Below, in pieces: positions 35,234 to 50,471 of a stretch of DNA of 64,000 nucleotides; position 1 is the stretch's first letter; the number at the start of each line of letters is the position of its first letter. The DNA is from a virus. The stretch covers positions 1 through 64,000 of the IMG/VR virus record IMGVR_UViG_3300040801_006072; one strand, 5' to 3'. The position numbers were made by a program, and so were the translations under genes. The notes beneath the pieces are model-generated. The model was not told where the DNA came from. It saw only the letters and a program-made list of their open reading frames with translations, and searched no databases.

Positions 35234-35698
35234 TTACCATTTACGACACGACCAGTATCTGGCCTTGTGCTTCGGTCCCGGATTATCGCAGTTATGTCTA
35301 GCTCTGAAACTTTTTCTTGCTTTAGGATTAGACTTTTTAATCTTCATGTCTGGATCACCAAAGTTTACCTTAACAACATTGCCTTTGGGATTCTTCACAT
35401 AAACTTTAAATTTTTTAACATCGCCTCGCATTGGCTTGTTTAGTTTAACTTTGCGTCCTTGATACTCTGCTTCGCCCAACGATGACTCAACCTCCTCGTC
35501 TAGCAAGTCAGATTCGAAAAATACTTCCTCGACTTCTTCTAAGGTAATTTCGTCTAGTTCGTAGCCTTCTGGGACACAGTTAGGAACCTTTTTTCCGTTC
35601 TTTGTTTTGTGTCCGACCATTTGATAGCCTTTCCAGCAAGGGTCGCCGCCTTTAATTCTTTTATTTTCACCTTCATTTAAAATATCAGAAAGTCTCAT
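35234..35698 (-). CDS. basic phage protein with capsid-targeting-like N-terminus, 154 aa
   Basis: MRLSDILNEGENKR has L-N-E before G. Two segments I recall as recurrent in T4-like cyanophage virion proteins: GGDPCWKGYQMVGHKTKNG near the N-terminus and the basic C-terminal block with KSNPKARKSFRARHNCDNPG ending YWSCRKW. An acidic middle joins them. Processed head protein is the best guess. Confidence 0.65.
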   Translation of the reverse strand: MRLSDILNEGENKRIKGGDPCWKGYQMVGHKTKNGKKVPNCVPEGYELDEITLEEVEEVFFESDLLDEEVESSLGEAEYQGRKVKLNKPMRGDVKKFKVYVKNPKGNVVKVNFGDPDMKIKKSNPKARKSFRARHNCDNPGPKHKARYWSCRKW

Positions 35699-35978
35699 CT
35701 GGATTTTCCCCTACGCACTGATTATGCTTTTCCTGCGCTTTATATTCCAATGAAGTTCTTGCGCTATCTAGATAATCTTTTGCCAGTGTAATTTTTGATT
35801 GAACCTAGCCCTCTAGACCCTCACTTTCGGGAATATCTTTAATAAGGTCATGCAAAAACTTGCTGTCTTGCTGTATGCGATGCAAGGCAGCTTTGGCCAT
35901 ATGCACTTCATGATCGTCCTTTTGGTTATAAGGATTATCAATTGCCTTCTGCGGAATCTGGATTTCGTCTAATTTCAT
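35685..35978 (-). CDS. late protein interrupted by one in-frame UAG, 97 codons
   Basis: Frame from ATG 35978 to TGA 35685-35687 is open except for UAG at codon 58 (35805-35807). The sequence around it, EGLEG-UAG-VQSKITLAKDYLD, belongs to a short family I recall in T4-like cyanophages with Trp at the interrupted position. Its true stop overlaps the next start by 14 nt, as usual here, which argues that the full frame is the gene. Without readthrough a 57-aa peptide is made. No Shine-Dalgarno; late octamer 5 nt upstream. The DDHEVHMAKAAL part is helical; function unknown. Confidence 0.7.
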
Positions 35979-35983
35979 ACTGG

Positions 35984-35991
35984 TATTTATC
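35984..35991 (-). promoter_or_regulatory. late octamer GATAAATA, leaderless position
   Basis: GATAAATA-CCAGT-ATG: only 5 nt between octamer and start codon, no Shine-Dalgarno. It overlaps the UAG stop of the muramidase gene. Confidence 0.6.
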
Positions 35992-36605
35992 TATTGTATC
36001 TTATCTATCACCAGTCGGTTGACCCAACCTCGAATAAACCTTTCCTGTGTGCTGTCTTCTTCGGCTCTTCCTACGTAAAATGAGCCGCGCAATATAAGCA
36101 ATAGCTTGAGCACGTAAATATCGCTCTCTACGCTAAGACACTTGGTTAGTGCCATAGCAGTACGTGTTCCTGCCCAGCCGTCGACTTTGAGATCTTCGAA
36201 CAGTGCTTGATCACGATTCAGCATGTTTAGCGTCCTTTGCAGGAATTCTGCTGCTCGCTTCACACCCATGTTAACAGAACAATCGAACATTTCTGCTGCA
36301 ATTTCTTTAGATTTGCTGCTCACACTGTCTAGGTTTAACTGACTGTGGTTCCAGAAGTTCTCGTAATAAAAGTGTTTAACCCAATAATTAAGTTCTTCGT
36401 CGGCATACAAGCATTCAGGAAAATCTTCTTGCTCCTTTAGTTCGTCTACAACTTTCCAGCCAGGCCAATTAGGCCAATAAACTCTGCTCACACCCTTATA
36501 TGTTTCTCCGCCATAGTCAGAAGGATCATCTACATAGCCTCCTTCGGCACTGCGAGTGAAAGCATAAGCCTCTAAAAATACTTCAGGTATAGCTACGTCT
36601 GTCAT
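35991..36605 (-). CDS. GH108 N-acetylmuramidase (endolysin), UAG stop
   Basis: Glycoside hydrolase 108 motif SAEGGYVDDPSDYGGETYKGVS with catalytic Glu21, followed by a peptidoglycan-binding-type C-terminal domain (about 105-180: EMFDCSVNMGVKRAAEFLQ ... DGWAGTRT). Cleaves the glycan backbone. 204 aa. The stop is UAG, and the next codons INTS lead in frame into the ATG of the following gene, so readthrough would give a fusion. Whether it is a free endolysin or a virion enzyme is open. Confidence 0.85.
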   Translation of the reverse strand: MTDVAIPEVFLEAYAFTRSAEGGYVDDPSDYGGETYKGVSRVYWPNWPGWKVVDELKEQEDFPECLYADEELNYWVKHFYYENFWNHSQLNLDSVSSKSKEIAAEMFDCSVNMGVKRAAEFLQRTLNMLNRDQALFEDLKVDGWAGTRTAMALTKCLSVESDIYVLKLLLILRGSFYVGRAEEDSTQERFIRGWVNRLVIDKIQ

Positions 36606-42756: not shown

Positions 42757-43125
42757 GTGGATATTACAGAAGTACAAGAAAAGTTCCCGTTCCTAACCGG
42801 TCTGAAATACCAAGATCGGGAATTCCTCTGCATCATACAAAATCATAGTGACAAGATCATGAGCTTCTATGATTTCAATCAAATCTCCACATCAGCAGAA
42901 AAACAACTGTTTTTAGACTATGGCGATACATGGTGGTGGGAATCGAACAGACTTCTGCCTATCAATATCTTCCTAACAGGAAAAATGGCTCACTTCAGGT
43001 ACTGCTTAAAAACAGTAGCAATGAAAGATGTAGAAATTCTGTTCGGTCCCACAACAAGTCTTAATAACCTAATGAAGAAAAGAATCAAAAAGCGTCAGAT
43101 TCAACTCGTTAGGAAATCCGATTAA
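42757..43125 (+). CDS. conserved phage hypothetical, 122 aa, only plus-strand gene
   Basis: GTG start. Contains FLDYGDTWWWESNR and LPINIFL, a block I recall as conserved in T4-like cyanophages, and a basic C-terminus (KKRIKKRQIQLVRK). Faces the release-factor gene tail to tail, the two stops overlapping. Function unknown; RNA or DNA binding possible from charge. Confidence 0.75.
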   Translation: MDITEVQEKFPFLTGLKYQDREFLCIIQNHSDKIMSFYDFNQISTSAEKQLFLDYGDTWWWESNRLLPINIFLTGKMAHFRYCLKTVAMKDVEILFGPTTSLNNLMKKRIKKRQIQLVRKSD

Positions 43126-43805
43126 ATCTTCTTTCCTTTTAGCACATCCTTTAACACCAACTTATTATTTGTAGAATGAACCAATACCGTGTTGTCCTTC
43201 TCACGGTAAGTTTTGATCTTATCTCCACGCATACCCGATCCTGCTAGATCTTTGCACATTGCTTTCTCTTCGCAGCGCCGAATTGACTCGTAATGTTCGC
43301 GAACACGCTCTTCTAACAAACGCCTAGCTTCGGTGCGATTATAGTGCTGGCACTTCTTTGCGCTTTTCGCTTCAATGCCCGTTGGCAAATGTCGCATGAC
43401 GACACAGCTTTCAGTTTTGTTGCGATGTTGGCCGCCTGGGCCAGAATCTTTAGTTGTGAATGTTTCTATGTCACTATCATGTAACTCGTAGTTCACAACA
43501 TCTTGTTTCTTACGAGCAACCACAGTCACAGTAGAAGTGTGCACACGACCACGAGTTTCCGTAGGTGGGACTCTTTGCCAGCGATGGCCGCCGGATTCAT
43601 TCAGTAAGGGTTGTAGGTTTTTCTCTTTACCAGAACAGCAAAGAGTAATGGAATTTCAGCCGCAGGCTGCTCGAGACTCAGCAATGGTCTCTACGTGAAG
43701 ATTGTGCTTGGCACAGTAATTTTGATAAATCGATGCTTGCTTCTCTACTAATAGCTTTGCATCATCGCCGCCTTCGGCAGCTCTAATTTCAAGTAGTAAT
43801 TTCAT
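43122..43805 (-). CDS. class I release factor (RF1 type) with in-frame UGA at codon 50
   Basis: Hydrolyses peptidyl-tRNA at stop codons. Reads EIRAAEGGDDAK at the start of domain 2, PPT (80-82, RF1-type PxT codon-recognition motif) in GGHRWQRVPPTETRGRVHTS, and GGQ (124-126). Domain 1 of cellular RF1 is absent and the C-terminal helix is shortened. The frame is continuous except UGA at 43656-43658, at a position where cellular RF1 has an aromatic residue (GGY). GGAGGT precedes ATG. Expression needs UGA readthrough or internal starts; an internal GTG at 43544 would give a GGQ-only, ArfB-like product. Confidence 0.8.
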
Positions 43806-43822: not shown

Positions 43823-43830
43823 TATTTATA
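43823..43830 (-). promoter_or_regulatory. late-promoter octamer TATAAATA
   Basis: Exact T4 late box TATAAATA 17 nt before the release-factor ATG, with GGAGG between. Confidence 0.65.
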
Positions 43831-49882: not shown

Positions 49883-49911
49883 ACAGTAGCAATATTTAGC
49901 TTCGATGTCAA
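49883..49911 (-). promoter_or_regulatory. sigma70 promoter, I78-like gene
   Basis: TTGACA (49906-49911), 17-nt spacer, TACTGT (49883-49888). The spacer ends AATATTGC like that of the tRNA promoter 123 nt away. Confidence 0.7.
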
Positions 49912-49922
49912 CCTATGTTTGG

Positions 49923-49995
49923 TGCTCCGGGTGGGACTCGAACCCACGACCGGCGGTTTTAGAGGCCGCTGCTCTGCCAACTGAGCTACCGGAAC
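49923..49995 (-). tRNA. tRNA with CUA anticodon (amber suppressor type)
   Basis: 73 nt folding as a standard cloverleaf: acceptor GTTCCGG/CCGGAGC (one G-U), D-stem GCTC/GAGC, T-stem GTGGG/CCCAC, 5-nt variable loop, discriminator A73. Anticodon loop is CTCTAAA: C32 U33, anticodon CUA, A37 A38, so it reads UAG. The stem has a C31-A39 mismatch. The loop differs by one base from the tRNA-Trp loop CTCCAAA, but A73 and G1-C72 are not Trp identity elements, so the charged amino acid is unknown. No encoded CCA. Confidence 0.85.
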
Positions 49996-50005
49996 GTATG
50001 TAGCT

Positions 50006-50034
50006 ATAGTAGCAATATTGCTCTTCGTTGTCAA
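50006..50034 (-). promoter_or_regulatory. sigma70 promoter, tRNA
   Basis: TTGACA (50029-50034), 17-nt spacer containing AGCAATATTGCT (perfect 12-bp palindrome, 50011-50022), TACTAT (50006-50011), then 10 nt to the tRNA 5' end. Confidence 0.75.
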
Positions 50035-50471
50035 GAAAGGATATATTCTTTTGCAAGCTCTGCACGAATCTTCATCAAAAGCTTGCCCAAGTGGTTTTCT
50101 CCTTCGCCGTCGCAAACACCCCAGAACTTATCGCCCCAGGTATTTCCTTCGACTAGCTCGCAATCCCCTGTAAGCAGTAGCATCTCTCTCATGCTCGGAA
50201 CAGAAAACTTAGCACGTAGAATATTTTCCATCACTTCAAGTTTCACTGTTTCCCAATCTTCTCGCAAAGGCACCATTCTGCCGGCTCGCTTGGCTTGGCC
50301 CGGTGTACGGCAATTACGAATAAAGTCTTTCCACACAGGATCGTTTGTCTTAGCACACATATATGCATGTTCGGAACTAGGATACTCATATCCATCATAG
50401 ATTACTTTACAGTAATAGAAGTTAGACAGAAAATGAAATTCGTCTGAGAAATTATTAATCGATTCTTGCAT
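50031..50471 (-). CDS. NADAR-domain (YbiA-like) protein
   Basis: NADAR family: FLSNFYYCKVIYDGYEYPSSEHAYM, the TPGQAKRAGR segment, and DKFWGVCDGEGENHLGKLLM. Members remove ADP-ribose from nucleobases or act on related N-glycosides; some reverse DarT-type DNA ADP-ribosylation used in phage defence. 146 aa, single domain. Overlaps uvsY by 17 nt, so expressed with recombination genes. Counter-defence is inference. Confidence 0.85.
   Translation of the reverse strand: MQESINNFSDEFHFLSNFYYCKVIYDGYEYPSSEHAYMCAKTNDPVWKDFIRNCRTPGQAKRAGRMVPLREDWETVKLEVMENILRAKFSVPSMREMLLLTGDCELVEGNTWGDKFWGVCDGEGENHLGKLLMKIRAELAKEYILS

Follow-up and report, generated by a model that had tools for sequence, protein, structure and literature searches.

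The virus record analysed here carries a lone tRNA gene with the anticodon CUA, which is conserved in its lineage, in a phage that keeps the standard genetic code. The same phage has two genes with in-frame stop codons, a UAG in a small accessory gene and a UGA in the gene of an RF1-type release factor, and in-frame UGAs recur in a family of strongly diverged phage RF1s. We give about even chances to the reading that the tRNA is a real amber suppressor-type tRNA of a standard-code phage and part of a gene set adjusting translation termination. The broader proposal is that many large standard-code phages carry a UGA-interrupted RF1 needing readthrough which, with a CUA tRNA in a subset of them, would form a phage-run termination switch; we hold it tentatively, at slightly below even chances. 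The release-factor family is more interesting than the tRNA, although its mechanism is one that we infer. The features concerned are collected in Table 1.

Table 1. Features of the window considered in this work
Feature	Position	Strand	Basis
Small gene, 97 codons plus stop UGA, family 'DHEVQMAR...LEGWVQSKIT', one in-frame UAG	35685..35978	-	ORF list, homologue scans
In-frame UAG at the Trp (TGG) position of homologues	35805..35807	-	homologue scans
Endolysin-like gene (Glyco_hydro_108 + PG_binding_3), UAG stop, same frame as small gene	35991..36605	-	ORFs, domains
RF1-like class I release factor, domain 1 absent, PPT motif, GGQ motif, one in-frame UGA	43122..43805	-	domain search, RF1 profile
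In-frame UGA, codon 50 of release-factor gene	43656..43658	-	translation through stop
CUA tRNA (amber suppressor type), encoded CCA, G1-C72, A73, C31-A39 mismatch	49920..49995	-	ARAGORN, Rfam RF00005, CUA kept in L002, L003, L037
Putative sigma-70-type promoter TTGACA-17-TACTAT, extended -10 TG, ends 11 nt before tRNA	50006..50034	-	consensus match only

A CUA tRNA gene and its conservation

The window, by which we mean the whole stretch of 64,000 nucleotides that was analysed, belongs to a 69 kb IMG/VR record. Its protein families (UvsX, UvsY-like, gp32-like, DnaB, terminase and class Ia ribonucleotide reductase) mark a T4-like tailed phage. The terminase shares 66% identity with its counterpart in the Pseudomonas jumbo phage PA5oct, so the record may represent only a portion of a larger genome.

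The original prediction had claimed a tRNA with the anticodon CUA and had proposed ARAGORN as a check. When run, ARAGORN called a single tRNA in the window, with the anticodon CUA, and the Rfam model RF00005 aligned end to end on positions 49995-49923 (63.2 bits, E 2.3e-11), which bore out the claim. The predicted extent, 49923-49995, matched the Rfam span, but the gene is longer, comprising 76 nt with the CCA end encoded at 49920-49922. Having a CUA anticodon within a complete tRNA fold, it is of the phage amber suppressor type. The "Pyl" tag returned by ARAGORN is set by the CUA anticodon alone, and the Rfam match describes an ordinary full-length tRNA. Such a fold differs from the shape of tRNA-Pyl.

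Canonical lengths had been predicted for all parts of the molecule. This held for the class I tRNA and its anticodon loop CUCUAAA, in which U33 is followed by C34, U35, A36 and A37, but not for the anticodon stem, where a mismatch had been overlooked: in the Rfam alignment the stem has 4 bp plus C31-A39 adjoining the loop, and this pair is open in the minimum-energy fold too. We considered whether the mismatch marks phage CUA tRNAs in general and discarded the idea, as it was found in 6/9 tRNAs of a first set but in only 20/117 of a broad set. Compared with sense tRNAs (18/335), these 20 cases, counted among the matches listed, represent an excess (p 3e-4); the 31-39 mismatch is therefore enriched in phage CUA tRNAs without defining them.

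The putative promoter of the tRNA has a perfect TTGACA as its -35 box and a spacer of 17 bases, and in the relative L002 the equivalent place before the tRNA is occupied by TTGACA-17-TATAGT. Late-type promoters (GATAAATA/TATAAATA) are scattered across the 69 kb record. Judging by this match to the sigma-70-type consensus, the tRNA is probably an early transcript made from its own host-type promoter. The original prediction had passed over this promoter, as well as the in-frame UAG and the release-factor gene described below. Promoter-like, near-identical sequences (TTGACA...TATTGCTACTRT) are present on both sides of the tRNA, at 49883-49911 and 50006-50034 (minus strand). Immediately upstream lies a gene with a NADAR domain (50031-50471, minus strand), whose function is possibly related to NAD or ADP-ribose.

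Relatives of the phage were collected through their gp32 and UvsX proteins. Three of them (L002, L003 and L037) have one CUA tRNA each and no second tRNA in the record. In L002 and L003 the genes preceding the tRNA are those of the window, and in L037 it is found ~3 kb further on. The four tRNAs diverge widely outside the anticodon loop, and CUA is kept in 4/4, at UvsX identities of about 65-75% for the relatives keeping the tRNA in place. Since three divergent relatives retain the anticodon and the neighbourhood despite the divergence of the remaining tRNA sequence, the CUA anticodon is, judging by these comparisons, conserved in the lineage and not a product of chance. The conservation in place of a lone CUA tRNA also suggests a specific use. 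In L003 (9153-9162) and L037 (15094-15103), the upstream gene overlaps the CUA tRNA and takes its UAG stop from tRNA bases 8-10, so that the suppressor would read a stop codon lying within its own gene.

Further CUA tRNAs were found in Sinorhizobium phage Phosso (two), in XacN1 (two in the part read) and in Stenotrophomonas phage RAS14. A pattern scan of viral contigs returned at least 119 stretches, corresponding to at least 117 distinct CUA tRNA sequences. Lone tRNAs of this kind are thus common in standard-code phages, and they are already known without a target having been found: CUA tRNAs with no known target were reported in Xanthomonas phage XacN1 (PMC5852040) and in Stenotrophomonas phage Summit (PMC9022506), and the novelty of the present one had been overstated. 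RAS14 additionally encodes a putative UUA (ochre) suppressor tRNA (L537, 2428-2502). The XacN1 tRNAs (L507, 16047-16205) are adjacent and have identical bodies but different acceptor stems, with A73 in one and G73 in the other, and may be charged by different synthetases.

The genetic code and a candidate UAG target

Among the ORFs of at least 70 aa in the 69 kb record, 56 end in TAA, 17 in TGA and 14 in TAG, so that UAG accounts for 16% of the terminators. The coding fraction is 0.966 under the standard code and 0.956 with UAG as sense. Global recoding of UAG (code 15) was discarded, as reading UAG as sense did not raise the coding coverage. The original prediction, which had counted about eleven genes ending in UAG within the window and had argued against a global reassignment, was right on both points, the count being eleven minus-strand ORFs. 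The relatives have a similar code usage, and UAG still ends genes in them.

The 69 kb record yielded only a single in-frame UAG, located in the small gene of Table 1, which reads ...ESEGLEG(UAG)VQSKITLAKDYLDS... around this codon. The product resembles its family equally on the two sides, with 51% similarity before the UAG and 50% after it. Homologues in viral contigs had TGG (Trp) at the UAG site in 81/81 cases when the scan query contained the Trp. A second scan with the Trp omitted from the query gave the same 81/81 (46 distinct; the motif EGWVQSKI in only 44). The scan of viral contigs revealed no further phage with a UAG at this position. A late-type promoter, GATAAATA, lies just before the small gene, at 35984-35991.

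Based on these data, the UAG would be a candidate target of the suppressor. It is equally possible that it is a recent nonsense mutation, tolerated thanks to the suppressor, since there is a single in-frame UAG and it lies in an accessory gene that, with its neighbour, is missing from the corresponding place of the relatives G009 and G001. A single transition converts TGG to TAG.

The latter possibility is part of a wider alternative, in which the tRNA has no dedicated target and serves as general insurance against nonsense mutations or slightly modifies termination by the host, the UAG at 35805 being a recent mutation and the release factor unrelated. We regard this as a serious contender, somewhat short of an even chance. 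It fits with the target-less tRNAs of XacN1 and Summit, with our search of genes that have homologues in Phosso, XacN1 or RAS14, which gave no convincing in-frame UAG, and with the UAG terminators of the lineage, which are neither depleted nor enriched for nearby second (fail-safe) stops. The retention in place of the lone CUA tRNA in the diverged relatives speaks against it, as does the pattern of in-frame UGAs in the RF1 family described below, which is not that of decay.

RF1-type release factors with an in-frame UGA

A release-factor domain search found PF00472 in the window, and reading upstream from it delimited a gene whose translation is MKLLLEIRAAEGGDDAKLL...ESRAACG(UGA)NSITLCC...ESGGHRWQRVPPTETRGRVHTST...GPGGQHRN.... 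The similarity to RF1 starts at domain 2, and the RF1 profile scored 181.9 bits with X at the UGA; the product also matched solved RF1 structures, with E down to 6e-36. The PPT (PxT) codon-recognition motif and an intact GGQ identify it as a class I factor of the RF1 type. RF1 was likewise the best NCBIfam match, although the product, lacking domain 1, scored below the cut-off for full-length factors. The gene is preceded by the late-type promoter TATAAATA at 43823-43830 and by a GGAGG ribosome site, and this segment is missing from G009 and G001 at the corresponding place.

We compared 13 phage RF1s without domain 1, from the window, five LR records of uncultured huge phages, G026, G051, G065, G044, G047, G073 and G002. 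In-frame UGAs were present in 12/13, amounting to 14 UGA with 0 UAG and 0 UAA. Among the LR records, LR756504 and LR756502 have one UGA each, LR745206 and LR756501 two each, and LR756511 none. The six CUA-tRNA phages picked by tRNA pattern (G026, G051, G065, G044, G047 and G073) share one UGA position, as does G002, and with one UGA of LR756501 this makes eight UGAs in the column of the conserved Trp of bacterial RF1. Over the family the UGAs occupy several sites, all between codons 34 and 54. No pair of these factors exceeds 61% identity, the median being 37%. A binomial estimate for 8/12 at one codon gives ~2e-14, which serves as a guide only because the phages are not independent.

The coding frame after the UGA is frame 0; in the four RF1s tested for them, the +1 and -1 frames close quickly. 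An autoregulation of the prfB type, with UGA and a +1 frameshift, was discarded on this basis, as the frame conserved past the UGA is frame 0. On the evidence of these alignments, the recurring in-frame UGA of the phage RF1 family is not decay. The literature searched, most subscription journals lying outside its scope, gave no description of phage RF1 genes with an in-frame UGA.

Could the UGA be a sense codon throughout these phages? In sampled stretches of W06, W07, G026, G051, G065, G047 and G002, coverage under the standard code was about equal to that with UGA as sense, numerous ORFs ended in UGA, and we saw no UCA tRNA. The UGA-recoding test left out LR756501 and LR756502, and the factor of W08 (LR756511) is the one without UGA. 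No further in-frame stops were found in genes with homologues in W06 and W07. The sampled phages thus gave no sign of global UGA recoding, with the test being weak for G044 and G073 because these are GC-rich (0.54).

These results bear on another origin of the family, by acquisition of the RF1 genes from phages or hosts with recoded UGA (code 4 or 25, UGA being Trp or Gly), which would leave them untranslatable in standard-code hosts. Code 4 phages with RF1, a UGA-reading tRNA and TrpRS were reported (PMC10746230), and the alignment of eight UGAs with the conserved Trp of RF1 would be compatible with such a source. We nevertheless consider it unlikely, given that the genes are intact except for the UGA across a large divergence, that UGA is the sole stop type and falls at several sites confined to codons 34-54, and that UGA terminates elsewhere in these phages, with no UCA tRNA seen in the sampled parts.

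Regarding a connection with the tRNA, genes with an RF-1 domain were present in 14/43 CUA-tRNA phage records vs 1/24 relatives selected without regard to a CUA tRNA. Of these 14, which include short RF-domain proteins of other types, only 6 belong to the RF1 type lacking domain 1, and the single case among the 24 is G002, where the tRNA is called with the anticodon "ctaa". The pattern search detected no CUA tRNA in the four 635-735 kb phages with a UGA-bearing RF1, so the two genes are not strictly linked. Taken together, the link between the CUA tRNA and the UGA-bearing RF1 is only suggestive. In the 134 kb record of G002 (L726, 13264-17650), the UGA-bearing RF1, a tmRNA and the CUA-type tRNA ("ctaa" by ARAGORN) are found within ~5 kb.

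Charging, a possible termination switch and known systems

The bases of the tRNA that bear on its identity are G1-C72, A73 and U35 in a class I body. In bacteria, lysine identity (class II LysRS) relies on A73 and U35, and in E. coli an amber suppressor carrying U35 and A73 is prone to insert lysine (PMC9976931). The window tRNA has this identity in part, with A73 and U35 present and U34 and U36 absent. Its body was nearest to tRNA-Lys in the set compared, a comparison that is biased since the bacterial members came from a pattern scan using part of the window tRNA itself. Because of A73 and U35, lysine is our best guess for the amino acid and is favoured over Trp. Class Ic synthetases (PF00579, TrpRS/TyrRS family) gave no match in the eight phage records searched, and the LysRS family (PF00152) gave a weak partial match in Phosso only. 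Charging by a host enzyme is most likely.

Bacterial Trp identity consists of G73, A1-U72 and the anticodon CCA (PMC9976931), and we rejected it for this tRNA, which has A73, G1-C72 and CUA, with C35 lost; the original prediction had been correct in holding A73 against Trp. Hence, charging with Trp, such that UAG and UGA would both be read as Trp at a few sites, seems improbable given these bases, the body nearest to tRNA-Lys and the lack of a PF00579 match in the records searched, even though the UAG site is an invariant Trp in homologues, many UGA sites fall on Trp columns in the alignment and the anticodon arm of a Phosso CUA tRNA equals that of the Atu_ph07 tRNA-Trp except for one anticodon change.

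Returning to the reading that we favour, a phage-run adjustment of termination, the CUA tRNA would be transcribed early from its own host-type promoter and charged by the host, probably with lysine. It would then cause partial readthrough of UAG alongside host RF1, shifting this codon towards sense, and the only candidate UAG target seen is the late gene at 35685-35978. The RF1-type factor, expressed from a late promoter, would be made only by readthrough of its in-frame UGA. When termination by host RF2 at UGA is weak, the phage RF1 would shift UAG and UAA back towards stop, and in this way might act as a counterweight to the CUA tRNA.

Phage suppressor tRNAs without recoding have been reported repeatedly with no target or purpose. 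Here, one lineage conserves a CUA tRNA along with a candidate target codon, and a companion family of UGA-bearing release factors exists in strongly diverged phages. Bacterial RF2 is regulated via a UGA in its own gene, and a phage RF1 with an in-frame UGA would be a new case of recoding, one that would open the direct study of stop-codon control by phages during infection.

As in XacN1 (PMC5852040) and Summit (PMC9022506), the phage has a class I CUA tRNA, UAG still acts as a terminator and there is no global recoding. Unlike in those phages, the window tRNA is alone, has its own putative promoter and is kept in place in the lineage, and the phage has a gene with an in-frame UAG at an invariant Trp. 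The code 15 phages (UAG = Gln; crAss-like and Lak, PMC9523058) also encode a CUA tRNA, but they recode UAG globally, which the window phage does not. A weakened anticodon stem, tied to stop-codon readthrough in tRNAs with 4-bp anticodon stems (PMC13092985), is seen here too; the opened pair is 27-43 in those tRNAs and 31-39, adjoining the loop, in the window tRNA.

Regarding the release factor, passages of PMC7162821 report that huge phages encode release factors 1 and 2. Those factors are class I, as here, and the paper lists them with no mention of an in-frame UGA in these passages; we found in-frame UGAs in members from uncultured phages of 635-735 kb. The closest parallel is the programmed UGA frameshift of bacterial prfB (PMC12421855), where an early in-frame UGA in a release-factor gene likewise needs recoding; bacterial prfA has no conserved premature stop (PMC12421855). 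The phage genes differ from prfB in being phage-borne, of the RF1 type and devoid of domain 1, in continuing in frame 0 instead of +1, and in having the UGA further in, at codons 34-54. The UGA-bearing phage RF1 family looks like an undescribed way to control gene ends.
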